DNA of 64,000 nt from Verrucomicrobiota bacterium JB022 (GCA_030673845.1 JAUTCQ010000021.1:62001-126000), one strand, 5' to 3'. Positions 32,836 to 63,642 are shown, counted from the first letter of the stretch. The notes: a model not told the origin generated them from the sequence alone. Program-made: numbers and translations.

Positions 32836-32838
32836 TCC

Positions 32839-36321: not shown

Positions 36322-36325
36322 GGCC

Positions 36326-37924: not shown

Positions 37925-37942
37925 TTCTCAAATCTTTGCTCA

Positions 37943-44245: not shown

Positions 44246-44265
44246 TAAACCCACTTTCTTATCCT

Positions 44266-45429: not shown

Positions 45430-45441
45430 AGCACTGCCGCC

Positions 45442-47360: not shown

Positions 47361-47867
47361 TTAGCGCTTGGCGGCGGCCTCGTTCAGGCCCTTGGAGAAC
47401 ATACCACCCTCGGCCAGCTTGGTCAGCTTGCTATCGGCAGCGCTTTCTTCCTTTTCGGACTTTTCGAGCAGGTCGACGGCTTCTTTTTCGCCGAGGATCT
47501 TGCCAAAGGTCTTGGTGGCGCCATAAGCGGCGATCTCGTAGTGCTCCACGCGGTTGGCGGCAGCGATGAGCGCGGCATCCTTGACTTCAGGGTTGCCGAG
47601 CTCACGAATCGCTTCTTCGCCTTCGCGGATCAGTCCCTTCATCGCCTCGCAGGTATGGCCGTCCGGGCGCTGGTTGAGCTGAGAAAAGATCTTGAGGAGA
47701 CGATCCGCCTGGTTGCGGGTCTCATCGAGGTGCTCGCGGAAAGCCTTTTTCAAGTCCTGATTTGAGGCGGCGGCCTCCATCTTCGGCAACGCTTCGATCA
47801 GTTGCGTCTCGGCGCTATAAAGGTCTCGGAGTTGTTCGAGGTAGAGATCGTGTAGGGTATTCAACAT
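47361..47867 (-). CDS. DUF892 ferritin-like protein (YciE/YciF type)
   Basis: A 168-residue all-alpha protein. LHDLYLEQLRDLYSAETQLI at the N-terminus, REHLDETRNQADRLLKIF and RVEHYEIAAYGATKTF carry the Glu and His residues that form a diiron-type site in this ferritin-like family. E. coli YciE and YciF are induced by stress, and relatives are common in general-stress regulons. It is flanked on both sides by tiny membrane proteins on the same strand. The function is uncertain beyond the fold. Confidence 0.88.
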   Translation of the reverse strand: MLNTLHDLYLEQLRDLYSAETQLIEALPKMEAAASNQDLKKAFREHLDETRNQADRLLKIFSQLNQRPDGHTCEAMKGLIREGEEAIRELGNPEVKDAALIAAANRVEHYEIAAYGATKTFGKILGEKEAVDLLEKSEKEESAADSKLTKLAEGGMFSKGLNEAAAKR

Positions 47868-48242: not shown

Positions 48243-49952
48243 TTAGGAAGAAGACTTGACGGTTTCGCCTTCCACACGAATGCGTTGAGCTTGAACGATG
48301 CTACGGTCTCCCCATTGCTGACGCTCACCGCTGATCATAACACGGTCGTCACGTTGCAAATCGAGATCCGAGAGGGAGGTGTCGGAGCCGAGGTTGATGA
48401 GGGCGCTTTCACCATTCTGGAGGCGAATGCGGACCAGCGTTTGCTCCTCGGAATCCTGGCCACTACGGTTCAACGTCACCCGGCGAAAGTCTTCGACCCG
48501 GCCGCGGAGCGTCACCTGATCCATCTGGTCGCCAGAGCTGCTGTTCTGGCCGTAGCGATTTTGATTGCTGCGATCTCGCGAGGTGGACGCGGTGGTGTCG
48601 CGGTCCTCATTCTGCATGGCACGCATGCGAGAAGCCGTCCGGTTCTGGGAGTTGAAGTTGGTCGCGTTGCGCTGATCCTTGCTGTCGCTCCACTGCCCGT
48701 CAGCCGAGTCGTAGGTGTAGGAAGTCACCGATTGATTCTGGCTGCTGCGATCCGAACGATTCTGGTTTTGGCTACGGTTTTGATCGCGGTTGCCTTGTTC
48801 CCAGCTGCCCTCACTCGAATTGTAGGTGTAGGACTGATTGGACTGGCCGGAACTGCGGTTACTCGCTTGCTGATTACGGCTCTCATTGCGGTCGCGGCTG
48901 CTTTGCTCCCAGTTCCGCTGGTTGGAGTCGTACGAATAGGTATCGTTGTAGCGGTCCGAGCTGTTGGAAGCCTGCTGATTGCGGTTCCAGTTACTGCGGT
49001 TCTGGTTGGAACTTTCAGAACGGTTGCGGTCTTCCGGGTTATAGGAAGAAGTCGACTGCTTCCAGTCGGAGTTCTGCGAACTGCCGTTCCGATTACCTTG
49101 GCGGTTACGGTCGGAATGGCTCTGGTTCACGCTTTCGCGTCGAATGGCGCGGTTGACGTCTACCGTCTGGTTGTTGACGCGCAGTTTCTGAGCAATGAAG
49201 ACAGGCTGGTTGTCGATCTGGCCGACGGTGCCTTTCAGCTGGACCTGGTCCCCTTGTTCAAGGTTGAGATCTTGCAGATCGTTCGAGCGACCGAGACTGA
49301 CGACCGTATTGCGACCGTCGTCGAGGCGCAGCTTGACGACCGTAAACTGGTCGGAATCGCCCTCTTGGGTCTGCAGCTCCATTTGGCGAAAGCCTTGAAT
49401 CTCGCCTTGGATTTGCTTGCTCTTCGTCTTCTGCTTGTCTTCCGCCTGAGAAGCCTGGTTGCGGTTTCCCTGGCTACGATCGTTGCTCCGCATGTTCCGG
49501 GAATCCTGCTGTCGCTGGCGATCGGTGCTCGTAAAGGTATAGATCACATATTCCGCCTCGTAATTCGAGCGGGCTCGATCTTGGCGGTTATTGTTTTGAT
49601 CGCGTGTACCTTGGCGCTCCCATTGATCGGAGCTGTCGTTCCGATTGTAATAGTAGTCGCCATCGTAGCCTACATTATTATTGGAGGCCATATTATTGCT
49701 CCAGGAATCGTCGTTCCAATAGCGACCATAGTCGGATTGGTTCAACTCCTGAAATTCATCATCAAACCAGTCAGTGGGGTCATACCATTCTTCCTGGCTC
49801 CAGCCTTCATCGGTATATTCCCAATCGCCGTTCTGGGCGAAGATTGCGCTTGGAGTAATCAAGAGGCCAAGCGTAGTGGCAGCGAGCAGCGCGGAAAGCG
49901 GCTTACGGGCGTGGCGTCGGAGGCTTTGGGTGGTTTTCTGGTTGTTCATCAT
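48243..49952 (-). CDS. Secreted Asn/Gln/Ser/Arg-rich repeat protein with two OB-like modules
   Basis: A 569-residue protein with a signal peptide (LSALLAATTLGLLITPSAIFA, cleaved before QNGDWEY). An acidic, aromatic N-terminal part is followed by an OB-like module (about 180-265, IQGEIQGFRQMEL...VNNQTV), a disordered Asn/Gln/Ser/Arg-rich region and a second OB-like module (about 480-565, LRGRVEDFRRVTL...VEGETV). The two modules share (V/L)(K/R)(L/I)RL(D/Q)(D/N)G and DL(N/D)L(E/Q)(Q/R)(G/D)D. The disordered part holds a motif Y-x-Y-(D/N)-S-x4-W repeated three times plus a divergent copy near residue 100. The family is unknown. It may act in the matrix or envelope. MMNN offers two adjacent ATG starts. 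Confidence 0.75.
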   Translation of the reverse strand: MMNNQKTTQSLRRHARKPLSALLAATTLGLLITPSAIFAQNGDWEYTDEGWSQEEWYDPTDWFDDEFQELNQSDYGRYWNDDSWSNNMASNNNVGYDGDYYYNRNDSSDQWERQGTRDQNNNRQDRARSNYEAEYVIYTFTSTDRQRQQDSRNMRSNDRSQGNRNQASQAEDKQKTKSKQIQGEIQGFRQMELQTQEGDSDQFTVVKLRLDDGRNTVVSLGRSNDLQDLNLEQGDQVQLKGTVGQIDNQPVFIAQKLRVNNQTVDVNRAIRRESVNQSHSDRNRQGNRNGSSQNSDWKQSTSSYNPEDRNRSESSNQNRSNWNRNQQASNSSDRYNDTYSYDSNQRNWEQSSRDRNESRNQQASNRSSGQSNQSYTYNSSEGSWEQGNRDQNRSQNQNRSDRSSQNQSVTSYTYDSADGQWSDSKDQRNATNFNSQNRTASRMRAMQNEDRDTTASTSRDRSNQNRYGQNSSSGDQMDQVTLRGRVEDFRRVTLNRSGQDSEEQTLVRIRLQNGESALINLGSDTSLSDLDLQRDDRVMISGERQQWGDRSIVQAQRIRVEGETVKSSS

Positions 49953-50239: not shown

Positions 50240-51091
50240 ATGTCGAATACCTTACCTCCTCAACATCAAGACAAGCAGCCCGGGCATGAGGCCCAGATGA
50301 CTCCCGCACCTCAGGTGCGACAAGCAGCTTCGCCTGCCGCAGGACGCTTGAAGGGTAAACGCGCCCTGATCAGCGGGGGCGACAGCGGGATCGGGGCTGC
50401 CGTAGCCGCCGCCTTCGCGCGCGAGGGCGCAAGCGTGGCCATACTCTACCTCGATGAGAGCGACGATGCCGAGCGTACGATGAAGGCGATCGAGGCCGCC
50501 GGACAGCGCTCGCTGGCCTTGGCGGGCGATATTGGAGATCGCGCTTTTTGCCGAGAGGCCGTGCAGAAAGTCGTCGAGACGTTCGGCGGGCTCGACATCC
50601 TCGTGAACAATGCAGGCGAGCAACACGTATGCACCAAAGTTGATGACATCGACCTCGATACGGTCGAGCGCACCTTTCGCACGAACGTTTTCGGGGCTTT
50701 TGCGCTGACGAAGTACGCCCTGCCCCACTTGCCGGAAGGTGGAGCCATCATCAATACCACCTCCGTCACCGCGTACCGGGGTAGCGGGGGGTTGGTAGAC
50801 TATTCCTCGACCAAGGGCGCGCTCGTTTCCTTTACCCGCTCGCTGGCCACGCAGCTGGCCGAGCGCAAGATCCGCGTCAATGCCGTCGCCCCCGGCCCGG
50901 TCTGGACGCCTCTGATCCCTGCGTCTTTCAACGAAGACAAGGTCAAGGAGTTTGGGAGCGACAACCTTATGCAGCGTCCGGGGCAGCCCAACGAGCTGGC
51001 TGCTTCCTACGTCTTTCTGGCGTCCAGCGATTCCAGTTTTTACACCGGCCAAGTCCTCCATCCGAACGGGGGAGAGATTGTAAACACCTAA
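50240..51091 (+). CDS. SDR-family oxidoreductase (YghA/YdaD type)
   Basis: A 283-residue classical SDR with an N-terminal extension (PPQHQDKQPGHEAQMTPAPQ) that is conserved in the YghA group and supports the start at 50240. RALISGGDSGIGAAVAAAFA binds NAD(P), LVNNAGEQ is present, and the catalytic set is Ser in NTTSVTAY with Tyr and Lys in VDYSSTKGAL. Relatives are general-stress proteins with broad aldehyde or sugar alcohol activity. The gene is the first of the plus-strand accessory cluster, separated from the next by 165 bp. Confidence 0.85.
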   Translation: MSNTLPPQHQDKQPGHEAQMTPAPQVRQAASPAAGRLKGKRALISGGDSGIGAAVAAAFAREGASVAILYLDESDDAERTMKAIEAAGQRSLALAGDIGDRAFCREAVQKVVETFGGLDILVNNAGEQHVCTKVDDIDLDTVERTFRTNVFGAFALTKYALPHLPEGGAIINTTSVTAYRGSGGLVDYSSTKGALVSFTRSLATQLAERKIRVNAVAPGPVWTPLIPASFNEDKVKEFGSDNLMQRPGQPNELAASYVFLASSDSSFYTGQVLHPNGGEIVNT

Positions 51092-51256: not shown

Positions 51257-52378
51257 ATGAAACAACGACACATCCTGATTACGGGCGGAGCTGGTTTTAT
51301 CGGTTCGCATCTCGCTACCGAGCTTCTGACCCAAGGGCATCGTGTCCGGGTCATGGACTCGCTGGAGGCACAGGTGCATGGCGATACCCCGTCGGTTCCC
51401 GGCTACCTGCATCCTAACGTGGAATTTTTCCGCGGCGATCTCCGAAACAAGGGAGAGCTGCAGGAAGCCCTCGCTGGGATCGATACCGTCTACCACTTTG
51501 CCGCCGCCGTGGGCGTTGGCCAAAGCATGTATGAAGTCGACCGTTACACCGCGATCAATAACCAAGGCACCGCTAATCTGCTGCAATGCCTGATCGAACG
51601 CCCGGTCCAGCGCCTGTTGGTGGCCTCCAGTATGAGCGTTTATGGCGAGGGGCTTTACCGCCAGCCCGGCGGTGAGGTGTGCAGCGTGCCCGAGCGCAGT
51701 CTGGAGCAACTGAAGCAGGCCCAGTGGGAAGTGCGCAACGAAGACGACCAGCTACTGGAGCCGGTGCCGACGCCAGAGAGCAAGCAGCCCCTGCCCTCGT
51801 CGATTTACGCCTTGGGCAAGCTCGACCAGGAGCGCATGTGCCTGATCGTGGGCAAAGCTTACAACATCCCCACGACCGCTTTTCGCTTTTTCAACGTGTA
51901 TGGGCCCCATCAGGCCCTTTCCAACCCCTACACGGGTGTCATCGCGATTTTCGCCTCGCGCTATCTCAACGGCAAGCAGCCCCAGATATTTGAAGACGGC
52001 CAACAACAGCGCGACTTTGTGCATGTGAAGGATGTCGCGCGTTGCTGCCGTCTGGCGCTGGACAACGAGCGCGCCCATAACGAGGTCTTCAATGTGGGCA
52101 GTGGCCAGCCCATCACGATTGAAAAGCTGACACAGCGCCTGGCTGAAGCCATGGGCCGCAGCTACCTGGGCTACGAGACCACCGGCAAGTATCGCGTGGG
52201 CGACATCCGCCACTGCTTCGCCGATATCTCCAAGGCTCGGGATATCCTGGGCTACACGCCCGAAGTGCGTCTTGAAGATGGCATGCGTGAACTGGCCCAA
52301 TGGCTGGAAGGCGAGATCGCCACCGACCATACGGAGGCCGCCCGCTCCGAACTGACTCAACGTGGACTGACCCTTTAG
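51257..52378 (+). CDS. NAD-dependent sugar epimerase/dehydratase
   Basis: A 373-residue extended SDR. The start at MKQRHILITGGAGFIGSH is preferred over an in-frame ATG at 51221. NAD binding is by TGGAGFIGSHLATEL, the active site has Ser in VASSMSVYGEG and Tyr/Lys in SIYALGKLDQE, and RFFNVYGPHQALSNPYTGVI binds the nucleotide sugar. It resembles dTDP-L-rhamnose 4-epimerase and UDP-glucose 4-epimerase types; the exact reaction cannot be read off. Its stop lies 2 bp before the glycosidase-epimerase fusion gene, so the two are likely coupled. Confidence 0.82.
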   Translation: MKQRHILITGGAGFIGSHLATELLTQGHRVRVMDSLEAQVHGDTPSVPGYLHPNVEFFRGDLRNKGELQEALAGIDTVYHFAAAVGVGQSMYEVDRYTAINNQGTANLLQCLIERPVQRLLVASSMSVYGEGLYRQPGGEVCSVPERSLEQLKQAQWEVRNEDDQLLEPVPTPESKQPLPSSIYALGKLDQERMCLIVGKAYNIPTTAFRFFNVYGPHQALSNPYTGVIAIFASRYLNGKQPQIFEDGQQQRDFVHVKDVARCCRLALDNERAHNEVFNVGSGQPITIEKLTQRLAEAMGRSYLGYETTGKYRVGDIRHCFADISKARDILGYTPEVRLEDGMRELAQWLEGEIATDHTEAARSELTQRGLTL

Positions 52379-52380
52379 CC

Positions 52381-54444
52381 ATGATCATTTCTCCTACCGA
52401 CTCCGCCGCCAATGGCGAAACGCCCCGCACTCCCCTTGGTTTTGTGGAATGGTTCCGCCCAGGCGAAGAAGACCGCGTCGCCAGCGTGCTTGCAGCCGTA
52501 CGCGAGCTGGGCGTCGAGCACCTGCGCATCGGCTTTTCGTGGGCAGATTACCACCGACCGGAGGGCAAAGCGTGGTATGATTGGCTCGTCCCCACACTGG
52601 CGGCGGAAGTCGAGCTGCTGCCGTGCCTGAACTACACCCCGCCCTCGATTGCCGAGGCGCCGCGCACCAGCGCCCCACCGCAGGATTTGAAGGCGTTTGC
52701 GGACTTCACCGATGAAGTGATCCGGCGCTACGGAGAGCATTTTGAATGGGTCGAGCTGTGGAACGAACCCAACAACCATGTGGAGTGGGACTTCCATCAC
52801 GACCCGGGTTGGGCCAAGTTTGCCGAGATGATCGGCATGGCCGCTCACTGGGCCAAGCAGTGCGGGAAGAAAGTCGTTTTGGGTGGCGTCAGCCCGATCG
52901 AAGGCCAGTTTTTCTGGAATCTCGCCCAACGTGGGGTATTGCAGCACCTCGACGCGGTCTCCGTTCATGGATTCCCGGAAACCTGGGACCACCAGTGGCA
53001 GGACTGGCGTGAACCGCTGAAAGAGGTACGCGATGTCCTCGACCAAAGCGGCAATTCTCACCTCCAACTGTGGATTACCGAGGCGGGCTACTCCACCTGG
53101 CGGCACGATGAATTTCGCCAGTTGCAGCACTTCCTCGCCGCTTTGCACGCCCCGGCCGACCGCCTTTACTGGTATTCGCTCGACGACCTCGATCCGAACC
53201 TTTCCCACCAGGACGGCTTCCACGCCGACGAGCGACACTACCACTTTGGGCTGCGCCGCGACGACGGCTCGCCGAAGCTTCTATACCGCCTGTGGGCAAG
53301 CGAGGGCTTGGAAGCTGTCGCCGCATTTGGGCAGCTCCCCTCGCCACAATTCGGGCATGAGGCCCGCGCCGACCGCACCCACCATCTCAACCGCAGCGAG
53401 GCAGAAGAATACGTGCTCGTCTTCGGCGGCTCCGGTTTTATCGGCAGCAACGTAGCCGAGCATTTCCTGAATCAAGGCGAGAAGGTCTTGGTGTTCGACA
53501 ATCTTTCCCGCGCCGGGGCCGAGAACAACCTCAACGACTTGCTCGCCCGCTACGGCGACCGTCTGCGGGTGGAGCTGAGCGACGTGCGCAACCGTTTTGC
53601 GGTGGCAGATGCGGTGGCCGGAGCCAAGGCAGTCTTCAACTTTTCCGCTCAGGTCGCCGTCACCACAAGCCTCGTCAACCCGCGCGACGACTTTGAAATC
53701 AACGTAGGCGGCACTTTAAACATTCTCGAAGCGATCCGCCAACGCAGCACGCCGGTTCCTATTATCTTTACCTCCACCAACAAGGTGTATGGCGGCATGG
53801 AAGATGTGGTGATGGAAGCGGTCGACAATCGCTACCGCCCGGTCGATCGCAAGCAGCAGGCTTTCGGGGAAGATCGCCCGCTCGACTTTCACAGCCCCTA
53901 TGGCTGTTCCAAAGGCGCGGCCGACCAGTATATCCTGGATTACGCGCGCTCGTTTGGCATCCCGGCCACCGTCTTCCGCCTCAGCTGCATTTACGGCCCG
54001 CATCAGCATGGCAACGAGGATCAGGGTTGGGTAGCGCACTTTATCCGTCGCACGCTGGCGGGAGAGCCGATCACGCTTTATGGCGACGGCAAGCAGGTGC
54101 GCGACATCCTGTATGTGGGCGACCTCGTCCGCGCCTTCAGCCTCGCGCTGAATCACCCGGAGCATTGCGCTGGCCATGCGTTCAACCTGGGGGGCGGGCG
54201 CGACAACTCGATCAGCCTCATCCAGTTGCTCGACTACCTTTCCGAGCTTCATGGCCAGCCGGTCGATGTAAACTTTGGCGAATGGCGCACGGGCGACCAA
54301 CGCTACTATGTGACCGACCACAGCCGCTTTTCCACCGCGACCGACTGGCGCCCGGAAATCAGCTGGAAGCAGGGCGTGGCTAAACTTTACCGCTGGCTCG
54401 AACGTCGCCAGCAACTCACTTCACCCGTCTCAACCTTATCCTGA
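52381..54444 (+). CDS. Fusion of a GH-A-like glycosidase domain and an NAD-dependent sugar epimerase
   Basis: A 687-residue two-domain protein without a signal peptide. Residues about 15-300 look like a (beta/alpha)8 glycosidase of clan GH-A (GH39/GH5-like): VELWNEPNNHVEW gives the acid/base Glu129 and LQLWITEAGYSTW the nucleophile Glu234. Residues about 343-685 are an extended SDR: VFGGSGFIGSNVAEHFL, Tyr/Lys in SPYGCSKGAADQY, and FRLSCIYGPHQHGNEDQGW, close to CDP-paratose 2-epimerase-like enzymes. Both active sites look complete. The enzyme may release or rearrange a sugar and then epimerise it, or act on a glycosylated cofactor; this is inference. GTs follow downstream. Confidence 0.85.
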   Translation: MIISPTDSAANGETPRTPLGFVEWFRPGEEDRVASVLAAVRELGVEHLRIGFSWADYHRPEGKAWYDWLVPTLAAEVELLPCLNYTPPSIAEAPRTSAPPQDLKAFADFTDEVIRRYGEHFEWVELWNEPNNHVEWDFHHDPGWAKFAEMIGMAAHWAKQCGKKVVLGGVSPIEGQFFWNLAQRGVLQHLDAVSVHGFPETWDHQWQDWREPLKEVRDVLDQSGNSHLQLWITEAGYSTWRHDEFRQLQHFLAALHAPADRLYWYSLDDLDPNLSHQDGFHADERHYHFGLRRDDGSPKLLYRLWASEGLEAVAAFGQLPSPQFGHEARADRTHHLNRSEAEEYVLVFGGSGFIGSNVAEHFLNQGEKVLVFDNLSRAGAENNLNDLLARYGDRLRVELSDVRNRFAVADAVAGAKAVFNFSAQVAVTTSLVNPRDDFEINVGGTLNILEAIRQRSTPVPIIFTSTNKVYGGMEDVVMEAVDNRYRPVDRKQQAFGEDRPLDFHSPYGCSKGAADQYILDYARSFGIPATVFRLSCIYGPHQHGNEDQGWVAHFIRRTLAGEPITLYGDGKQVRDILYVGDLVRAFSLALNHPEHCAGHAFNLGGGRDNSISLIQLLDYLSELHGQPVDVNFGEWRTGDQRYYVTDHSRFSTATDWRPEISWKQGVAKLYRWLERRQQLTSPVSTLS

Positions 54445-54447
54445 AAA

Positions 54448-55491
54448 ATGATCTCCTCACTCACCGTCGAAGAAGCCTCTACCGCTGCTCCCTCTACCCG
54501 CGAAACTTCTGATCCCATCCCCGCCACGATGCGCGCCGCCGTCCTCAAAGGGCCGCGGCAATGGGTGCTGGAAGAAGTCCCCGTGCCCGAACCGAAGGCC
54601 GATGAAGTCCTCATCCGCATGGAGGGTTGCGGCGTCTGCGGCTCCAACCTGCCGATCTGGGAAGGGCGCGACTGGTTCCAGTATCCAGTCAAGGCTGGCA
54701 ACCCGGGCCATGAAGGTTGGGGCTATGTCGCAGCCGTGGGGGAAGACGTAACCGAGTGGCAAGTCGGCGATCGTGTGACTGCGCTCACCTATCATGCTTT
54801 TGCTCCGTACGACCTTGCCCACCGCAGCCAGGTTATCGCCTTGCCGGAGTCGCTCGACGGTCGCCCCATGCCGGGAGAACCGCTGGGCTGCGCGATCAAC
54901 GTCTTCCGCCGCGCCCGCATTTTTGCCACTGACACGGTGGTGGTGATCGGCAGCGGCTTCCTCGGCACGTTGCTGGTCTCGCTTTGCGCCCGGGCTGGCG
55001 CCCGAGTGGCAGCCGTCAGTCGTCGCGAGTCGGCGCTGGAATTTGCCAAGGAATACGGGGCGGAATTTACGGTACGCGATACGGGAGACGGCCAGGACGT
55101 GACCAAACAGCTGCACGAGTGGGCTGGCAGCCAAGGGGTGAGCGTCGTTATCGAAGCCACAGGTGCCGCCGGCCCAATCGACCTCGCCACCAATCTGCTG
55201 AAGGAGCGGGGCCGCATGGTCATTGCCGGCTTCCACCAGGACGGGCTGCGCCAAGTCAACCTCCAGCAGTGGAACTGGCTGGGGCTCGACGTGATCAACG
55301 CCCATGAGCGCGATCCGCTGATCTACCTCGACGGCATGAAGCGTGCGGTGGAGCTGCAGGCGTTGGAAGGTCTCGACCCCCGTCGCCTTTACACCCACAC
55401 CTTCGCGCTGGAAGACATCCAGCAGGCGTTCGAGACCATGCATGAGCGGCCTGAAGGCTTTATGAAGGCGCTCGTCTTGATGAATTCCTAG
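54448..55491 (+). CDS. Zinc-dependent alcohol dehydrogenase (MDR family)
   Basis: A 347-residue MDR enzyme. The N-terminal catalytic domain starts at MRAAVLKGPRQWVLEEVPVP (residue 28 from this ATG; the start at 54529 is an alternative). Catalytic zinc ligands are expected in GCGVCGSN and GHEGWG plus the cysteine of EPLGCAINVF; the structural four-cysteine zinc lobe seems absent. The coenzyme domain has VVVIGSGFLGTLLVSLCARA. The gene sits 3 bp after the glycosidase-epimerase fusion and could oxidise or reduce a sugar or polyol in the same pathway. Confidence 0.85.
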   Translation: MISSLTVEEASTAAPSTRETSDPIPATMRAAVLKGPRQWVLEEVPVPEPKADEVLIRMEGCGVCGSNLPIWEGRDWFQYPVKAGNPGHEGWGYVAAVGEDVTEWQVGDRVTALTYHAFAPYDLAHRSQVIALPESLDGRPMPGEPLGCAINVFRRARIFATDTVVVIGSGFLGTLLVSLCARAGARVAAVSRRESALEFAKEYGAEFTVRDTGDGQDVTKQLHEWAGSQGVSVVIEATGAAGPIDLATNLLKERGRMVIAGFHQDGLRQVNLQQWNWLGLDVINAHERDPLIYLDGMKRAVELQALEGLDPRRLYTHTFALEDIQQAFETMHERPEGFMKALVLMNS

Positions 55492-55602
55492 CTTCGACGG
55501 TTTCATGCTTGTCGCACCCGATTTTGTCTGGAACAGCCCCACGCGTCGCACGTTTGGGCAGCAGGAGCAAACAACAAGTCTCACCCTCTTTGCGCAGTGT
55601 TG

Positions 55603-56790
55603 ATGGAAGCAACGGAAACATACCCGACCACACGCCGTGTATTGATGACCGCTGATACACTGGGCGGGGTGTGGACCTACGCCATGGAGCTCATCCGCTC
55701 GCTGGAGCCCCACCACGTCGAAGTCGCCCTCGTGGCGCGTGGCCGGGAGCCGAACCGCGAGCAGCGTGAAGAGGCCAATGCGCTGCGCAACTGCGAGCTC
55801 TATACCTTGCCCCAGAAGCTGGAATGGATGGACGACCCGTGGCACGACGTCGAAGAAGCGCAGGACGCCTTGCGCCGCCTCGTCGACGATGTGACCCCCG
55901 ATGTCCTGCACTTTAACGACTATGGAGCCGCAGTCGCGGGCTGGGAGTTGCCGGTGGTCTTGACTGCGCATTCGTGCGTCTACTCGTGGTTTCAGGCCGT
56001 AAAAGGAGGGCTGCCTTCTCAGGAGTGGCAGCCTTATCGCAATTGCGTTCGCCAAGCGCTCGAAAACGCGACCGTAGTGACTGCGCCGACCAAGGAAATG
56101 CTGCGAGGACTGGCAGTCTACGATGCCGACGTGCAGGACGCCCGCGTCTTCGCCAATGGCCGCAGCTCGACCGCCTTTGTCCGCAACGCGCAAAAGCAGC
56201 CGCTGATCCTTGCCGCTGGGCGCGTGTGGGATGAGGCGAAGAATCTCAGCGTCTTGCACCCCGCCGGGCGCAAACTCAGCTGGCCCATTTATGTCGCGGG
56301 CGAGACCGAGCACCCGAGCTATCCCGAGCAACGCGAGCCTCAAACCGCTTTGCGTTGCCTGGGCAACCTCGGGCCGCTGCAGATGCGTCAGGTGCTGGCC
56401 GCTGCCTCGATCTTCGCCCACCCGGCCCGCTACGAGCCCTTTGGGCTGGCCCCGCTAGAGGCAGCCTTGGCAGGTTGTGCGCTCGTGCTGGGCGACATCC
56501 CGTCGCTACACGAAGTGTGGGGCGATGCGGCGTTGTATGTGCCCTGCGATGCTCCCGAAGCCTGGTGCCTGACGCTGCGGCAACTCATTTATGATGCGCC
56601 CCGCCGGGCGGAAATGGCCCGCCGTGCCCAAGCCCGCGCCCGTCGCTATTCTGCCGAAGCCTTTGGGGAAGCCTACGCCAGCCTCTACGCGGAATTCCCG
56701 AGCCGCGAGTCGACCCATGAGAAAGCGTCCGCCACCACCTTTTCACGCGCGCCTTTCGTCCCCTCACCCTTTCAACCGCCCTTTGGATGA
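55603..56790 (+). CDS. Glycosyltransferase family 4 protein
   Basis: A 395-residue GT-B enzyme. RVLMTADTLGGVWTYAMELI contains the Gly-rich acceptor loop, DVLHFNDYGAAVAGWELPVV and TAHSCVYSWFQAVKGGLPS follow, and the C-domain has LAAGRVWDEAKNLSVL, HPARYEPFGLAPLEAALAG and SLHEVWGDAALYV. GTG at 55597 is a possible alternative start. The last 25 residues are a Ser/Pro-rich tail. The stop overlaps the next gene as ATGA. It is the first of four consecutive glycosyltransferases in this cluster. Confidence 0.88.
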   Translation: MEATETYPTTRRVLMTADTLGGVWTYAMELIRSLEPHHVEVALVARGREPNREQREEANALRNCELYTLPQKLEWMDDPWHDVEEAQDALRRLVDDVTPDVLHFNDYGAAVAGWELPVVLTAHSCVYSWFQAVKGGLPSQEWQPYRNCVRQALENATVVTAPTKEMLRGLAVYDADVQDARVFANGRSSTAFVRNAQKQPLILAAGRVWDEAKNLSVLHPAGRKLSWPIYVAGETEHPSYPEQREPQTALRCLGNLGPLQMRQVLAAASIFAHPARYEPFGLAPLEAALAGCALVLGDIPSLHEVWGDAALYVPCDAPEAWCLTLRQLIYDAPRRAEMARRAQARARRYSAEAFGEAYASLYAEFPSRESTHEKASATTFSRAPFVPSPFQPPFG

Positions 56791-57926
56791 ATATTATCGG
56801 GTTTTACCATTCCCTCGCGTCCGACTGGAACCACGGCAACGCCCATTTCTTGCGCGGCGTCGTGACCGACCTTATTACCCGCGGCCATCAGGTAGCGATC
56901 TACGAGGAGTTCAACAACTGGAGCCTCCAGCATCTGGTGGAGGATGCGGGCTCGGAGCCGCTCTCGGCCTTGCGGGACTACTACCCGCGGTTGCACCCAC
57001 GCTTTTACCTGCCGAATGAGCTGGAGCTGGATGCCTTGCTTGAAGATGCCGACGTCGTGATTGTGCACGAGTGGAACCCGCCCGCCCTGATCAAGGCGAT
57101 CGGCGAGCATCACAAGGCCAACCCGAATTACGTGCTGCTTTTCCACGACACGCACCACCGAGGCGTGAGTGCGCAGCACGAGATGGATGCTCTGGATCTT
57201 TCCGGCTACGACGGTGCGCTCGTCTTTGGCGAAGTCTTGCGCCAGCGTTATCTGGAAAAGCAATGGGTGGAACGCGCCTGGACGTGGCATGAAGCCGCCG
57301 ACAGCCGCGTATTTCGCCCCCTGCCCCGCGACCATATCGAAGGCGACGTCGTCTGGATCGGCAACTGGGGAGACGACGAGCGCACGAACGAGCTGCACGA
57401 GTTCCTGCTGGAGCCGGTCAAGAACCTCGGCTATCAGGCGACGGTCCACGGGGTGCGTTACCCGCCCGAAGCACTCGCAGCCCTCGAAGAGGCGGGTATC
57501 CGTTATGCCGGTTGGCTGCCGAACTTCCGCGCGCCCGAGGTGTTTGCCCGCTACCGCATGACGGTTCACGTGCCGCGCCGGTACTACCGCGAGAGCCTGC
57601 CCGGCATCCCGACTATTCGGCCCTTTGAGGCGATGGCCTGCGGCATCCCGCTGATCAGCGCTCCATGGGAGGATGCCGAAAGGCTCTTCACCCCCGGGCT
57701 AGATTACCTCGTGGCCGAGGACGCCGATGAAATGGAGCGCCACCTCTACGCGCTGAAGCATGACCCGCGTCGCGCCGAAGCCATGGCCCAACGCGCCTTC
57801 AACACCATCCGCTCTCGGCACACCTGCCACCACCGGGTCGACGAACTGATCCAGATCATCGATCTGATCAAGACGCACCGTCATGCCCGCCTCACCCGCA
57901 GGTTGAGCCCCGCCACCCAAGTTTGA
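56787..57926 (+). CDS. CgeB-family glycosyltransferase, copy 1
   Basis: A 379-residue GT-B-like protein of the CgeB group (named after a Bacillus spore-maturation glycosyltransferase). NIIGFYHSLASDWNHGNAHF starts the N-domain; the C-domain has YRESLPGIPTIRPFEAMACG and ISAPWEDAERLF, the CgeB pattern of Arg-x-Phe-Glu-Ala-x-Ala-x-Gly donor binding. It belongs to a run of three related genes with similar N-terminal layout (W-x-x-G-x-x-x, then RGH). The copies share the fold but are diverged, so they probably add different sugars. Confidence 0.85.
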   Translation: MNIIGFYHSLASDWNHGNAHFLRGVVTDLITRGHQVAIYEEFNNWSLQHLVEDAGSEPLSALRDYYPRLHPRFYLPNELELDALLEDADVVIVHEWNPPALIKAIGEHHKANPNYVLLFHDTHHRGVSAQHEMDALDLSGYDGALVFGEVLRQRYLEKQWVERAWTWHEAADSRVFRPLPRDHIEGDVVWIGNWGDDERTNELHEFLLEPVKNLGYQATVHGVRYPPEALAALEEAGIRYAGWLPNFRAPEVFARYRMTVHVPRRYYRESLPGIPTIRPFEAMACGIPLISAPWEDAERLFTPGLDYLVAEDADEMERHLYALKHDPRRAEAMAQRAFNTIRSRHTCHHRVDELIQIIDLIKTHRHARLTRRLSPATQV

Positions 57927-57939
57927 TCCCTTTCACGCT

Positions 57940-59037
57940 ATGCCCAAGCTCAAGATCGCTTTCTTCGGCTCCAGCCTCGTTTCCGCCTACTGGAACGGCG
58001 CCGCCACCTACTACCGTGGCATGCTGCGCGCCTTCCATGCCCGAGGCCACGAGATTACCTTTTACGAGCCCGACGCTTTCGAACGCCAGCAACACCGCGA
58101 CCTCGATACCCCCGACTTTGCCCGCAGCGTCGTCTACGCCGCCAACCGCGAAGCCATGCACCAGTGTCTGGAGCATGCCAGCCACGCCGATGTGGTGGTG
58201 AAGGCCAGCGGAGTCGGTATTTTCGACGAAGAGCTGGAGGCCGCCGTGCTGGCCCACCAACGACGAGGCGCGCAGGTCATTTACTGGGACGTTGACGCCC
58301 CGGCGACGCTGGAGCGGCTCGATAACAACCCGCAAGACCCCCTGCGCAGCCACATCCCCGAATATGATGCGGTGCTAACCTACGGGGGTGGACCAGGCGT
58401 GGTGCAAGCGTTTACCCAGTTGGGCTCGCGCCAGTGCGTGCCGATCTACAACGCTTTGGACCCGGAAGACCATCACCCGGTGCCGACCGACGAACGTTTT
58501 GCCTGCGACCTCAACTTCGCGGGCAACCGCCTGCCCGATCGTGAAGAGCGCGTGATGGAGTTTTTCTTTGGCGCCGCCCGGGCCCTGCCCGAGAAGCGTT
58601 TCCTGCTGGCAGGGAACGGCTGGCACCAAAACGCACCCGAGCTGGCGAACGTCCAGCCAATGGGGCACCTCTACACGCGCGACCACAATGCTTTCAATGC
58701 GAGCCCGCGCGCGGTCCTCAACATCAGCCGCGAGAGCATGGCCCGCATGGGTTATTCGCCCGCCACCCGCGTGTTTGAGGCCGCCGGAGCCGGAGCTTGC
58801 CTGATCACCGATGCCTGGAAGGGTGTGGAGCAGTTTCTGGAGCCGGGGCGTGAGTGCCTCGTAGCCCACAATGGCAAGGAAGTGGCCGAGCTGCTGCGCG
58901 ACCTTTCCATGAAGGAATCGCGCGAAATCGGCCGCCGGGCCCGCGCGCGGCTGCTGCAGGAGCACACCTACGCCCACCGTGCAGCCGAGCTTGAAGCCCT
59001 TCTCTTGAACCGTCCTCAGTTTGCCAGCGCCTCATGA
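57940..59037 (+). CDS. CgeB-family glycosyltransferase, copy 2
   Basis: A 365-residue paralogue with IAFFGSSLVSAYWNGAATYY, the YRGMLRAFHARGHEITFYEP element and the donor segment YSPATRVFEAAGAGACLITD. QVIYWDVDAPATLERL matches the corresponding YDIDTPVTLEKL of copy 3, and DLDTPDF matches NRDLPHPDF there, so copies 2 and 3 are closer to each other than to copy 1. The stop overlaps the next start as ATGA. Confidence 0.85.
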   Translation: MPKLKIAFFGSSLVSAYWNGAATYYRGMLRAFHARGHEITFYEPDAFERQQHRDLDTPDFARSVVYAANREAMHQCLEHASHADVVVKASGVGIFDEELEAAVLAHQRRGAQVIYWDVDAPATLERLDNNPQDPLRSHIPEYDAVLTYGGGPGVVQAFTQLGSRQCVPIYNALDPEDHHPVPTDERFACDLNFAGNRLPDREERVMEFFFGAARALPEKRFLLAGNGWHQNAPELANVQPMGHLYTRDHNAFNASPRAVLNISRESMARMGYSPATRVFEAAGAGACLITDAWKGVEQFLEPGRECLVAHNGKEVAELLRDLSMKESREIGRRARARLLQEHTYAHRAAELEALLLNRPQFASAS

Positions 59038-60128
59038 ACACCCCCCATCCCCTGCACATCGTTGTCCTCGGCCTCTCCATCACATCTTCATGGGGTAACG
59101 GCCACGCCACCACCTACCGCGCCTTGCTCAAGGCCCTCCAGCGCCGGGGCCATCGGATTACGTTTCTGGAGCGCGACGTGCCGTGGTATGCCAGCAACCG
59201 TGACCTGCCGCATCCCGACTTTGCCGAAACGCACCTTTACACCGACCTCGACGATCTGAAGCAACGCTTCGCCGACACCGTGCGCAGGGCCGACATGGTG
59301 ATCGTAGGCTCCTACGTGCCCGACGGGGTCGCGGTCGGCCATTGGGCCTGCGATACGGCGCACGGTATGATCGCGTTTTACGACATCGATACGCCGGTGA
59401 CGCTGGAGAAGCTGGCGCGGGGCGACGAGGAGTACCTTTCAACAGGTCTGATCCCGCGCTTCGACCTCTACCTGTCGTTCACCGGCGGCCCCTTGCTGCG
59501 ACGCCTGGAGCAGGAGTTCGGCGCCCAACGAGCGCGCCCGCTCTACTGCTCCGTCGATCCAGAGCTGTATTACCCAGAGCAGGGCGAAACACATTACGAC
59601 CTGGGCTACCTCGGCACCTACAGCGACGACCGCCAGCCAGGGGTCGACCGCCTGATGCTCGAAGCCGCACGCCACTGGCGCAACGGTCGCTTTGCAGTCG
59701 CCGGCCCACAGTATCCGGATTCGATCGCGTGGCCGGAAAATGTCCGTCGTATCGAGCACCTGCCGCCCGCCGAACATCGCGCCTTTTACAACCAGCAGCG
59801 TGCTACCCTCAACATCACCCGCGCAGCCATGCGCCAGACGGGTTATGCGCCCAGTGTCCGCCTGTTTGAAGCCGCCGCTTGCGGCACGCCGGTGATCTCG
59901 GACTACTGGAACGGTCTGGATACCTTGTTCGACATCGGGTCGGAAATCCTGATCAGCCGAGGCCCCGCCGACACGCTGCGCTACCTGCAGGAGTTCTCGC
60001 CCGCCGATCTCCAGAACATCGGCACGGCCGCACGCAAACGTATCCTCGCCTCCCACACGGCCGATCATCGCGCGGCGGAACTCGAAGGGCATTACCATGG
60101 GTGCCTCGCCCCGGCGCTCGCATCCTAA
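59034..60128 (+). CDS. CgeB-family glycosyltransferase, copy 3
   Basis: A 364-residue paralogue beginning LHIVVLGLSITSSWGNGHAT, then YRALLKALQRRGHRITFLER. IAFYDIDTPVTLEKLARGDE and the donor segment YAPSVRLFEAAACGTPVISD align with copy 2. It lies immediately upstream of the methyltransferase gene (7 bp gap). A soluble glycosyltransferase acting on a small-molecule or lipid acceptor is likely; the acceptor cannot be inferred from the sequence. Confidence 0.85.
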   Translation: MNTPHPLHIVVLGLSITSSWGNGHATTYRALLKALQRRGHRITFLERDVPWYASNRDLPHPDFAETHLYTDLDDLKQRFADTVRRADMVIVGSYVPDGVAVGHWACDTAHGMIAFYDIDTPVTLEKLARGDEEYLSTGLIPRFDLYLSFTGGPLLRRLEQEFGAQRARPLYCSVDPELYYPEQGETHYDLGYLGTYSDDRQPGVDRLMLEAARHWRNGRFAVAGPQYPDSIAWPENVRRIEHLPPAEHRAFYNQQRATLNITRAAMRQTGYAPSVRLFEAAACGTPVISDYWNGLDTLFDIGSEILISRGPADTLRYLQEFSPADLQNIGTAARKRILASHTADHRAAELEGHYHGCLAPALAS

Positions 60129-60135
60129 GCGGCAT

Positions 60136-60939
60136 ATGGCACAGCTTCAGACAGATTTCTCGAACCCTTCGACACCGACGGAACGCAAGGTGGCAGAGCT
60201 GGGACCGTGGTTCCAGAACCTGCACCTGCCAGATGGCACGCAGACCGCCCCCAAACATCCGCTGGGCGACTTCCCGTCGTTCAAATGGGAGCAGCTCGCC
60301 AGCCACCTGCCGGAAGACCTCTCCGGCCAGCGCGTGCTGGAGCTGGGTTGCAACGCTGGTTTCTACGCCCTGAAGCTGGCGGAGCGAGGCGCGCAGGTGG
60401 ATGCGGTCGAGATCGACCCGCACTACCTGAAGCAAGCGATCTGGGCTGCCGAGCAACATGGCTTGCAAAAGCGCATCCGATTTCGCGAGGCCTCGGTCAA
60501 CACCGTCATTCGCGAACCCGATCGCTACGATGGGATCTTTTTTATGGGGCTGTTTTACCACCTGCGCTACCCGCTGCTCGCGCTCGACGGGCTGGTGCGC
60601 AAGATGGACGGCTGGATGGTGTTCCAGACGCTGACCAGCCCCGAAGGCAGCGAGGGCTGCGCGGTGCCCGACAATCTCGAATTCGAGCGGCGCGAGCGCC
60701 TGGCAGAGCCGGGTTGGCCCAAGATGGCGTTTATCGAGCATCGCCTGGCCGACGACCCGACCAACTGGTGGGCGGCCAATATCCCCGGAGTCGAAGCCAT
60801 GTTGCGTTCTGCCGGCCTTGAAATTGTCGAGCGGCCCATGCACGAGACGTATCTCTGCCGTCCGCGCTCCTACGCCCTGGAGGGCGACGCTTTCATTCAG
60901 CAAGCGCTTGCGGAGGTCCTTGATCCGCCCAACGCCTGA
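60136..60939 (+). CDS. Class-I SAM-dependent methyltransferase (TIGR04290-like)
   Basis: A 267-residue Rossmann methyltransferase. The start at MAQLQTDFSN is chosen; upstream in-frame sequence overlaps the previous gene. The N-terminal PWFQNLHLPDGTQTAPKHPL, motif I VLELGCNAGFYALKLA, acidic VDAVEIDPHYLKQAIWAAEQ and FFMGLFYHLRYPLLALDGLV match the family I know as TIGR04290, which is encoded beside glycosyltransferases in several proteobacteria. The catalytic substrate is unknown; methylation of a sugar hydroxyl is the simplest proposal. Confidence 0.87.
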   Translation: MAQLQTDFSNPSTPTERKVAELGPWFQNLHLPDGTQTAPKHPLGDFPSFKWEQLASHLPEDLSGQRVLELGCNAGFYALKLAERGAQVDAVEIDPHYLKQAIWAAEQHGLQKRIRFREASVNTVIREPDRYDGIFFMGLFYHLRYPLLALDGLVRKMDGWMVFQTLTSPEGSEGCAVPDNLEFERRERLAEPGWPKMAFIEHRLADDPTNWWAANIPGVEAMLRSAGLEIVERPMHETYLCRPRSYALEGDAFIQQALAEVLDPPNA

Positions 60940-60991
60940 GGCTGGTACCGTCTCTGCTCCCCCTATCGGGTAAACTCAACCCCTTCCCGAT

Positions 60992-62017
60992 ATGGTATCA
61001 GAGAATCGTAAACCCGTCGTCGTAATCACGGGCGGGACGGCAGGCGTAGGACGCGCCACCGCCCGCAAATTTGCCCATGAGGGCTACAATGTAGCGGTTA
61101 TAGCCCGCGAAGCCGGACGCCTGGAGGCGACGGAAAAGGAATTGCAGCAGCTGGGGGCACACGCCCTGGCGATCCAAGCCGATGTCAGCGACGCCCATGC
61201 ACTGGCAATGGCAGCCGATCGTATCGAACATCAGCTAGGCGAGATCGACGTGTGGGTCAACTGCGCGATGACCAGCGTCTTCGCCCCGGTCAAGGATACC
61301 ACACCGGAAGAGTTTCGCCGCGTGACGGAAGTCTGCTTCCTCGGCTACGTCTACGGCACCAAGGCAGTGCTGGGCCGCATGCTGGAGCGTGACCGCGGCA
61401 CGATCGTGCAAGTGGGCTCTGCCCTCGCCTATCGGGGGATCCCGCTGCAGAGCGCATACTGCGCTTCCAAACACGCGATTCAGGGCTTCTGCGATTCCCT
61501 GCGCACGGAGCTTTTGCACGACGGCAGCAACGTGCACGTGACGATGGTCCAGCTGCCGGCGGTCAACACGCCCCAATTTAGTTGGGTCCGCAGCCGTTTG
61601 CCACAGAAGGCCCAGCCGGTGCCGCCTATCTACCAGCCCGAAGTGGCGGCCGACGGCATTTATTTGGCCGCGTGTAGTCGCCGGCGCGAGGTCCTCGTCG
61701 GCAGCTCTACGCTCAAGGCAGTTTACGGCAACAAGGTGGCTCCCGGCTATGCGGATCGCAAGCTGGCCCGCGAGGGCTACAGCGGCCAACAAATCGAGGA
61801 GCCCGAAGCTGCCGACCGCCCGGACAATCTTTATGCCCCCGTACCAGGGGACTTCGCCGCACACGGAGACTTCGACGACCGGGCTTACGGGCACAGTCTG
61901 CAGCTGGAGGCCAGCAAACATCGGGGCACTGTGGCGATGGCGGGGGTGACGACGGGCGTCCTGCTCGGCACGGCGCTCGGTTTGGCCCGCGTCTTGCGCC
62001 ATAGGAACGACTCTTAA
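60992..62017 (+). CDS. SDR-family oxidoreductase with C-terminal membrane anchor
   Basis: A 341-residue classical SDR. VVITGGTAGVGRATARKFAH binds NAD(P), and the catalytic residues are Ser in VGSALAYRGIP with Tyr and Lys in SAYCASKHAIQ. The N-A-G motif is altered to NCAMTSV. After about residue 250 there is a polar extension and a final hydrophobic helix (VAMAGVTTGVLLGTALGLA) followed by basic residues RVLRHRNDS, which looks like a C-terminal membrane anchor. The orientation would keep the enzyme on the cytoplasmic face. It is 14 bp upstream of another SDR. Confidence 0.83.
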   Translation: MVSENRKPVVVITGGTAGVGRATARKFAHEGYNVAVIAREAGRLEATEKELQQLGAHALAIQADVSDAHALAMAADRIEHQLGEIDVWVNCAMTSVFAPVKDTTPEEFRRVTEVCFLGYVYGTKAVLGRMLERDRGTIVQVGSALAYRGIPLQSAYCASKHAIQGFCDSLRTELLHDGSNVHVTMVQLPAVNTPQFSWVRSRLPQKAQPVPPIYQPEVAADGIYLAACSRRREVLVGSSTLKAVYGNKVAPGYADRKLAREGYSGQQIEEPEAADRPDNLYAPVPGDFAAHGDFDDRAYGHSLQLEASKHRGTVAMAGVTTGVLLGTALGLARVLRHRNDS

Positions 62018-62030
62018 CCCCCAATCCATT

Positions 62031-62822
62031 ATGGCAGACAAAAAAGACAATAACCGCGTGGCCTTGATTACCGGAGCCGGCGAAGGCCTGGGACGCGCTA
62101 CCGCGCTCCGACTGGCCCGTGACGGCGTCAAGGTGGGCTGCCTGGGGCGACACCTCGATAACACCCAGGAAACCGTCGACCTGATCAAGGAAGCGGGCGG
62201 CGAGGCCAAGGCTTTGCAGGCCGACATCAGCAAATGGGAGGACATGCAAAAGGCTGCCAAACAACTCGACGAGCTGTGGGGCCGGATCGACATCGTCTTT
62301 GCCAATGCCGGCATCAACGGCACCTGGACACCCATTGCAGACATGGAGCCGGAGGAATGGTGCAAGACGATCGACATCAACCTCACGGGCACCTTTTACA
62401 CCGTCAAGGCCTGCCTCCCGATGCTGAAGCGCGACGGCGGCTCCGTCATCATCACCTCTTCGGTCAATGGTACCCGTATGTTTACCAACACGGGTGCCAG
62501 TGCCTACTCGTCGTCCAAGGCGGGTCAAGTGGCCTTCATGAAGATGATCGCACTGGAGCTGGCCAGCCACCGCATCCGCGTCAACGCCATCTGCCCCGGC
62601 GCCATCGAATCGGCCATCGACGACAATACGGATAAGGAGAACATCGAGTCCGAAGCTGAGCCGGTCGTATTCCCCGAGGGCAAAATCCCGCTGACCGACG
62701 GCAAGCCTGGCAAGGCCGAAGATGTGGCCGAGCTGGTCTACTTCCTCGCCAGCGAGCACAGCCGCCACATCACTGGCACGGAGGTCTTTATCGACGGTGC
62801 CCAATCCCTGCTCCAAGGCTAG
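62031..62822 (+). CDS. SDR-family oxidoreductase
   Basis: A 263-residue classical SDR of normal length. ALITGAGEGLGRATALRLAR, FANAGINGTW, the Ser of SSVNGTRMF and the Tyr/Lys of SAYSSSKAGQVAF are all in place, and EVFIDGAQSLLQG closes the fold. It has no membrane anchor. It sits between the anchored SDR and the DUF296 gene, both of which are separated from it by under 15 bp. Its substrate is unknown; 3-oxo sugar or fatty-acyl derivatives are candidates. Confidence 0.87.
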   Translation: MADKKDNNRVALITGAGEGLGRATALRLARDGVKVGCLGRHLDNTQETVDLIKEAGGEAKALQADISKWEDMQKAAKQLDELWGRIDIVFANAGINGTWTPIADMEPEEWCKTIDINLTGTFYTVKACLPMLKRDGGSVIITSSVNGTRMFTNTGASAYSSSKAGQVAFMKMIALELASHRIRVNAICPGAIESAIDDNTDKENIESEAEPVVFPEGKIPLTDGKPGKAEDVAELVYFLASEHSRHITGTEVFIDGAQSLLQG

Positions 62823-62824
62823 GC

Positions 62825-63280
62825 ATGCGCTACCAAAAGCTAGATACTACCGGCGACACCACCTATGTGCTCGTCTTTGAAACGGGCGAAGCCGTGATGG
62901 AAAAGCTGGCCGCATTTGTCGCGAAGGAAGGGATCGTTTCTGCCCGCTTCCACGGCATCGGTGCCTTTTCAGAGGCGGGCCTGCGTTTCTTCAACACCGA
63001 CCATCTGGAATATATCGACATCCCGGTGCACGAGCAGGTGGAGCTGCTCTCGTTGACTGGCACGATTGCCTCTCGCGATGGCAAGGCCCAGCTGCATGCC
63101 CACGCGATCCTGGGCAAGCCAGATGGCCAGTGTATCGGCGGGCACCTTAAGGATGCCGTGGTGCGCCCCACCCTGGAGGTGATGGTGATTGCCAGCCCGG
63201 CTCACCTGCACCGCGAATTCGACCCACGGGTCGAGCTGCCCTTGTTGCAGCTCGATGCCAGCAAGCAACAGGAAGTGTAA
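62825..63280 (+). CDS. PPC/DUF296-domain protein
   Basis: A 151-residue protein consisting of one PPC (plant and prokaryote conserved, DUF296) domain. ARFHGIGAFSEAGLRFF and LHAHAILGKPDGQCIGGHL carry the histidines typical of the metal-binding bacterial branch. In plants the domain is paired with AT-hook DNA binding, but bacterial stand-alone versions lack a known DNA-binding part and their role is unclear. It follows the SDR gene by 2 bp, so it belongs to this cluster. Confidence 0.85.
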   Translation: MRYQKLDTTGDTTYVLVFETGEAVMEKLAAFVAKEGIVSARFHGIGAFSEAGLRFFNTDHLEYIDIPVHEQVELLSLTGTIASRDGKAQLHAHAILGKPDGQCIGGHLKDAVVRPTLEVMVIASPAHLHREFDPRVELPLLQLDASKQQEV

Positions 63281-63307: not shown

Positions 63308-63583
63308 ATGAACGCTCAAACTTCTTTCCTTTACCGCCCCTTGGCGGGGCTGAGCCTGCTCGCGGCTTTCTGCTTTGCGGGCTGCGAAAACTACCGTAAG
63401 CCGCAGAACACCGAAGAAGGTGCGCTGCAAGGCGCGGCGGCCGGAGCCGCAGCCGGGGCCTTGATCGGGTCCCAATCGGGCGATGCGCTCGAAGGGGCGG
63501 CCATCGGGGGCGCAGCAGGAGCCGCAGCGGGTGGCTACTACGGCAATCGCGAGGAACGGCGCGACCGCGACGATGACGACTGA
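63308..63583 (+). CDS. Glycine-zipper lipoprotein-like protein
   Basis: A 91-residue protein. LSLLAAFCFAGCENYRKP is a signal sequence with a lipobox (FAGC), so the mature protein would be lipid-anchored. The middle is a glycine zipper: GALQGAAAGAAAGALIGSQ and AAIGGAAGAAAGGYYGN, which forms membrane-associated helical oligomers in outer-membrane proteins. The tail is highly charged (REERRDRDDDD). It is the last plus-strand gene and ends before a strong terminator. Confidence 0.82.
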   Translation: MNAQTSFLYRPLAGLSLLAAFCFAGCENYRKPQNTEEGALQGAAAGAAAGALIGSQSGDALEGAAIGGAAGAAAGGYYGNREERRDRDDDD

Positions 63584-63610
63584 TCGCGGGCCAGAAATTT
63601 GTGCTAAGCG

Positions 63611-63642
63611 AGCGGCGGGGATCAGGCTCCCGCCGCTTTTTT
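63611..63642 (+). terminator. Rho-independent terminator of the accessory cluster
   Basis: AGCGGCGGG pairs with CCCGCCGCT (9 bp) around a 9-nt loop and is followed by a run of six T residues. It lies 28 bp past the glycine-zipper gene, between it and the convergent gene at 63648. Confidence 0.88.

Follow-up and report, generated by a model that had tools for sequence, protein, structure and literature searches.

A unit of eight genes that recurs in at least 12 bacterial phyla appears to encode cytosolic enzymes that together make a small oligosaccharide or glycoside carrying a methyl group. For Alphaproteobacteria this reading adds that the acceptor is probably inositol and that the set is induced by the general stress factor EcfG, and we put the probability of the whole at about 55%. 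The core consists of two nucleotide-sugar enzymes (E1 and the glycosidase-fused E2), a dehydrogenase (ADH), a GT4 glycosyltransferase, three CgeB-type glycosyltransferases (CgA, CgB and CgC) and a methyltransferase (MT). In a literature search we found no published description of the cluster or its product, and searches on several SMb locus tags, on CgeB with desiccation and on EcfG with a glycosyltransferase and an epimerase returned nothing useful. Roughly eight enzymes thus keep one gene order across distant phyla, yet we found no described product; should that product prove to be a general stress glycoside, it would be a widespread protectant that has been overlooked beside trehalose and comparable solutes.

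The window, meaning the whole stretch of DNA analysed, comprises 64,000 nt of Verrucomicrobiota bacterium JB022 (JAUTCQ010000021.1:62001-126000; genome assembly of 4.35 Mb in 25 contigs), and the cluster lies at 51257-63280, all on the plus strand. To describe its conservation, we scanned 84,980 species with a CgB alignment, which gave at least 567 places, and kept the best 80; the counts below refer to 67 loci with full flanks, where, because CgB was the bait, its own count is fixed and close relatives are favoured. The features are as follows.

47361-47867, minus strand: DUF892 gene adjoining the cluster.
50240-51091, plus strand: YghA-like short-chain dehydrogenase/reductase (SDR) gene adjoining the cluster.
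51257-52378, plus strand: E1, the first core gene, an extended-SDR protein like NDP-sugar epimerases/dehydratases (PF01370, 189 bits; ortholog in 65 loci).
52381-54444, plus strand: E2, with a glycosidase-like domain of clan GH-A (about 52381-53406) joined in one protein to a CDP-tyvelose-2-epimerase-like domain (about 53407-54444; this half in 61 loci).
54448-55491, plus strand: ADH, a Zn-dependent dehydrogenase like IolM, Tdh and sorbitol dehydrogenase (PF00107/PF08240; 49 loci).
55597-56790, plus strand: GT4 glycosyltransferase (PF13439/PF00534; 67 loci).
56787-57926, plus strand: CgA, CgeB-type glycosyltransferase (PF13524; 66 loci).
57940-59037, plus strand: CgB, CgeB-type glycosyltransferase, the most conserved (PF13524; 66 loci, as bait).
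59034-60128, plus strand: CgC, CgeB-type glycosyltransferase (PF13524; 64 loci).
60136-60939, plus strand (alternative upstream ATG at 60097): MT, TIGR04290-like SAM methyltransferase (52 loci).
60992-62017, plus strand: SDR of the PRK07109 subfamily (468 bits to NF005495), genus-specific passenger.
62031-62822, plus strand: classical SDR (PF13561), genus-specific passenger.
62825-63280, plus strand: DUF296/PCC-domain protein (PF03479, 101 bits), genus-specific passenger.
63308-63583, plus strand: small glycine-zipper-like lipoprotein-type ORF (71% identical ortholog in locus L014).
63610-63638, plus strand: predicted terminator-like hairpin (consensus match; 11 pairs, then a T run).

The conserved unit is formed by the first eight genes (51257-60939). 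A sequence-only reading of the window had described ten genes with gaps mostly below 15 bp. The genes and the mostly tight spacing (-4 to +13 bp) are real, but the set holds 11 genes, and the spacing widens to 105 bp ahead of GT4 and to 52 bp ahead of the first SDR. All of the families it had named (two epimerases, a glycosidase domain, ADH, GT4, three CgeB-type transferases, a methyltransferase, two SDRs and DUF296) were recovered, as were the adjoining DUF892 and YghA-like genes. The hairpin is the sole strong terminator-like one on the plus strand of the stretch and lies downstream of the glycine-zipper ORF, which may be the transcript's final gene.

The order E1-E2-GT4-CgA-CgB-CgC is unbroken in 52 of the 67 loci, and 12 phyla are named among the best 80 CgB matches. 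The grouping far exceeds chance, because the eight core genes are found together as one unit in at least 12 phyla; the comparison of neighbourhoods that the sequence-only reading had proposed therefore shows wide co-occurrence. Moreover, MT served as an independent bait, and each of the copies inspected with it belonged to the same cluster (X. sacchari, S. meliloti, R. leguminosarum, Geminicoccaceae, R. etli and three more whole genomes). Carriers occur among Verrucomicrobiota and Bacteroidota as well as rhizobia, sphingomonads and biocrust cyanobacteria. They include S. meliloti 1021 (pSymB, at about 227-258 kb), R. etli (p42b, at 53-65 kb) and S. melonis, all of them model organisms, which makes both the product and its role directly testable. 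Near the window, TIGR04290 is scarce (2 of 55 relatives, 4 of 286 genomes in the class), and the sole cluster-bearing relative within the genus and family searched is a Puniceicoccaceae MAG, strain 5H, Verrucomicrobiota (genome G001, locus L018). Among the loci compared, only this same-genus locus has the SDR-SDR-DUF296 genes in this place. The two SDRs and DUF296, which had been counted as parts of the cluster, are thus better regarded as passengers than as members of the pathway.

The synteny with strain 5H also bears on whether the cluster could belong to the exopolysaccharide locus at 29-46 kb of the window as an accessory branch that decorates its repeat unit. The region at 30-48 kb of the window does adjoin the cluster in strain 5H too, but this arrangement is confined to the same genus, no polysaccharide locus recurs beside the core elsewhere, and several alphaproteobacterial copies are borne on plasmids among unrelated genes. 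We therefore reject it as a general reading, and find it very improbable for the window as well.

The second half of E2 is, by its sequence matches, CDP-tyvelose-2-epimerase-like and closer to these enzymes than to other extended SDRs: it scores 284 bits (PDB 1orr) and 274 bits against solved CDP-tyvelose 2-epimerases, and 132 bits against the next non-tyvelose enzyme. The first half is predicted to fold as a (beta/alpha)8 barrel of the GH-A type, for which the best Foldseek match and closest solved fold is PslG (E = 2×10−15), the GH39 glycosidase of the Psl locus. No curated Pfam glycoside hydrolase family matched this domain, so its sequence does not place it in GH39. In the window it keeps both catalytic glutamates, acid/base and nucleophile (WNEPN and ITEAG), and these residues are lost in several relatives, among fused copies. 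The domain is fused to the epimerase in 28 of the 67 loci, encoded by a separate gene in 26, present in both forms in 3 and missing in 10. Unlike PslG, it is thus fused to or placed beside a nucleotide-sugar epimerase, in what would be a soluble pathway without polymer export. A UDP-glucuronate-decarboxylase-like SDR is added in 25 loci.

A Gfo/Idh protein accompanies ADH in 44 of the 49 loci that have ADH. Of the 14 loci that encode the B12 radical-SAM protein TIGR04295, none has ADH, as against 49 of the 53 others (P = 3×10−11), and the Gfo/Idh protein likewise never occurs with TIGR04295. This mutual exclusion suggests that the two systems solve the same step, which would be an unusual case of replaced chemistry. 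The best family matches of ADH and the Gfo/Idh protein, which are weak, are inositol or inosose dehydrogenases; solved relatives of the latter include DgpA and other sugar dehydrogenases. The window cluster has ADH with neither an adjacent Gfo/Idh partner nor TIGR04295, and elsewhere in its genome only distant Gfo/Idh homologues (at most 34% identity) were found.

The window MT scores 293.6 bits against TIGR04290, about 6 bits under the cut-off of 300, and covers model positions 3-226 of 226, while relatives with the same neighbourhood score 319 and 386; the earlier label "TIGR04290-like" is therefore apt. It is distantly like EvdMO1 and a D-glucose O-methyltransferase. MT and the alternative radical-SAM enzyme correspond to the NCBIfam models TIGR04290 (meth_Rta_06860) and TIGR04295 (B12_rSAM_oligo), and the "oligo" in the latter name suggests that its curators saw an oligosaccharide context. 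In contrast to the whole cluster described here, these are hypothetical single-protein models without a described pathway, and a literature search found no paper with either accession. The kinds of enzyme are already known; it is their combination for which no described product was found, and the NCBI family names indicate that it had been half-noticed before.

The radical-SAM enzyme, the methyltransferase and the CDP-tyvelose-type sugar chemistry recall antibiotic oligosaccharides, and the product might then act as a glycosylated, diffusible signal or secondary metabolite instead of protecting the cell, with a stress promoter serving ecological timing. We consider this rather unlikely, given that the flanks show no recurrent gene for scaffold synthesis, resistance or dedicated regulation, that an exporter is missing from most loci, and that most antibiotics are not distributed over 12 or more phyla.

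CgA, CgB and CgC each match PF13524 with 130-137 bits, above the gathering score of 25. A tree of 88 CgeB-type proteins places CgA in one clade (support 100), CgB in another (support 99) and CgC in a third group, beside a fourth paralogue of some lineages that co-occurs with a nucleotidyltransferase (P = 1×10−10). On this tree the three transferases are old, separate subfamilies, and one GT4 step plus three distinct CgeB-type steps were therefore already in place when the cluster began to spread. The likeness to Bacillus CgeB rests on membership of the PF13524 GT-B transferases, a family common to both; what differs here is that three co-inherited subfamilies stand in one operon, mostly in Gram-negative bacteria. 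A CgB sequence profile found no match in the PDB, and its fold came from a predicted structure: the AF2 model (pLDDT 91) adopts a GT-B fold nearest to BshA, MshA, a methylmannose transferase and similar enzymes. The nearest solved relatives of the GT4 profile are sucrose-phosphate synthase, MshA, maltose-1-phosphate synthase and PimA, and GT4 probably carries out the first glycosyl transfer.

A simple hydropathy scan gave no clear membrane span in any core protein, the top value being that of ADH, within its nucleotide-binding region. The window set has no flippase or polymerase of the Wzx/Wzy type, and no such family recurs in the flanks of relatives. These results agree with the view of the sequence-only reading that the product is small rather than a polymer. 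Its statement that export proteins are absent holds for the window but fails for the family, since an MsbA/NdvA-like ABC exporter lies beside the core in about nine diverse relatives; for the one tested, the scores against MsbA and against a glucan exporter are equal. Such exporters count against our main reading, as they equally fit an exported or lipid-linked product, and export or lipid linkage is thus possible in some lineages. We therefore retain the explanation that the soluble transferases work at the inner membrane face on an existing lipid (e.g. phosphatidylinositol), as glycolipid or envelope decoration, with flipping of the MsbA type. PimA, a relative of GT4, does glycosylate phosphatidylinositol, and an extended variant of five loci (L016, L029, L040, L073 and L094) adds a PIG-L deacetylase, a further glycosyltransferase and a GNAT acyltransferase. 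Most loci, however, lack a transporter, and none of the core proteins shows a clear membrane span. The flanks contain no recurrent gene for lipid synthesis or for an acyl-lipid or polyprenyl-phosphate transferase. A glycolipid product thus seems possible yet doubtful.

An inositol-3-phosphate synthase gene lies less than 10 kb from the core in 15 of the 67 loci, often with a histidine phosphatase. One such protein scores 533 bits to TIGR03450 (cut-off 638) and lies above the cut-off of Pfam Inos-1-P_synth. Among 199 Sphingomonadaceae genomes, CgB is present in 26, the synthase in 54 and both in 25, usually less than 10 kb apart. The synthase thus occurs in 25 of the 26 CgB-positive genomes compared with 29 of the 173 CgB-negative ones (P = 9×10−16, Fisher's exact test, a value inflated by phylogenetic relatedness), and in the single CgB genome without it CgB is at a contig edge. 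No PF01658 synthase was found in the window genome, so inositol cannot be claimed as acceptor there; the synthase is also missing in strain 5H, several Bacteroidota carriers and most Pontibacter carriers. Inositol as a universal acceptor is accordingly rejected. Part of the family resembles the mycothiol pathway (Ino1, MshA, phosphatase, MshB) in sharing an inositol-3-phosphate synthase, an MshA/PimA-like GT4 and a histidine phosphatase, as well as the PIG-L deacetylase of the five extended loci. It differs from that pathway by the addition of epimerases, a methyltransferase and three or four CgeB-type transferases, and no cysteine ligase was seen among the genes that recur nearby. In addition, GT4 reaches 46 bits where MshA reaches 462, and the window genome lacks the synthase.

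The EcfG motifs listed for S. melonis have the form GGAAC-N15-18-GTT (PMC6599016), and we searched for this form in the 300 bp before E1. It is present in 13 of 20 alphaproteobacterial loci compared with 2 of 51 elsewhere. The background, taken from random windows of the same loci, is 1.9%, and the internal genes from E2 to CgC have no such motif upstream. The true motif occurs in 13 loci, whereas each of 89 permuted motifs occurs in at most 5 (mean 0.6). In S. meliloti the motif stands before the E1, ADH and inositol-synthase operons. Similarly, R. etli p42b, which is outside the test set, bears it before E1 and ADH; the main text of the R. etli stress papers does not name the p42b cluster genes. 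The promoter motif predicts that EcfG controls the alphaproteobacterial clusters under stress. It is absent before E1 in the window, where EcfG is not expected because it is exclusive to Alphaproteobacteria (PMC3892343). The stress setting that had been read from the window thus gains ground in Alphaproteobacteria and is not shown for the window organism, for which, with neither the synthase nor the motif in its genome, stress and inositol links could only be inferred.

From these families we infer the substrates, steps and product of the pathway as follows. E1 and E2, in many relatives with the UDP-glucuronate-decarboxylase-like SDR, would shape the nucleotide sugars; GT4 would begin the chain on a small acceptor, and CgA, CgB and CgC would each add one sugar. 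A dehydrogenase step, by ADH and Gfo/Idh or elsewhere by the B12 radical-SAM enzyme, may reset one carbinol centre, the TIGR04290-like enzyme would put on a methyl group, and the GH-A domain may trim or recycle the product or an intermediate. In Alphaproteobacteria the acceptor would probably be inositol or inositol phosphate and EcfG would turn the set on. The product may help cells to survive stress. Only tentatively do we go further and suggest a new class of stress solutes in at least 12 phyla, namely methylated hetero-oligosaccharides with an inositol or cyclitol cap in many lineages, whose stereochemistry would be set by the dehydrogenase pair or the B12 radical-SAM enzyme.

Two further matches concern single genes. 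A PADLOC match of MT to mad2 covers the methyltransferase domain only, and a defence system was rejected. The Crp-like gene that ends the cluster of S. melonis AS2.3 is preceded by a motif that nearly matches the one of EcfG target #0072 in strain Fr1 (PMC6599016).

Among relatives carrying the cluster, several have lost one or both catalytic glutamates of the glycosidase domain that forms the N-terminal half of the fusion protein E2 (loci L022, L036, L037, L050, L063 and L078), as if the domain without them had retained a structural or binding role in those relatives. The S. melonis AS2.3 cluster has one further gene at its end:

L080:13163-13942, Crp-like regulator

This gene bears a motif for the general stress sigma factor EcfG that is nearly identical to the motif of target #0072 in PMC6599016, and its product is a possible regulator of the S. 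melonis cluster.

Nine loci, spread over several phyla, have next to the cluster a member of a protein family of ~580 aa; a Pfam and NCBIfam search of one member of this family gave no match. Its members include:

L011:3148-4896
L073:19618-21339
L079:13212-14882

In Lysobacter-type and Bacteroidota loci (L060, L062, L075, L036, L046 and L092), a polysaccharide-pyruvyl-transferase-like gene adjoins a histidine phosphatase gene close to the cluster.

Two further features lie upstream of the cluster in the window:

48243-49952, minus strand, secreted-type protein of 569 aa, rich in Asn, Ser and Arg
29268-46386, plus strand, exopolysaccharide locus

The 569-aa protein gave no match in a Pfam search and contains two OB-like stretches resembling each other; the 592-aa plus-strand ORF antisense to its gene is probably a composition artefact. 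The exopolysaccharide locus, with identities read from sequences only, is predicted to encode glycosyltransferases, an O-antigen-ligase-like protein, a heparinase-like protein, a WecB-like epimerase and a nucleotidyltransferase, and its counterpart is found in synteny in the same-genus strain 5H at ~73-76% identity.
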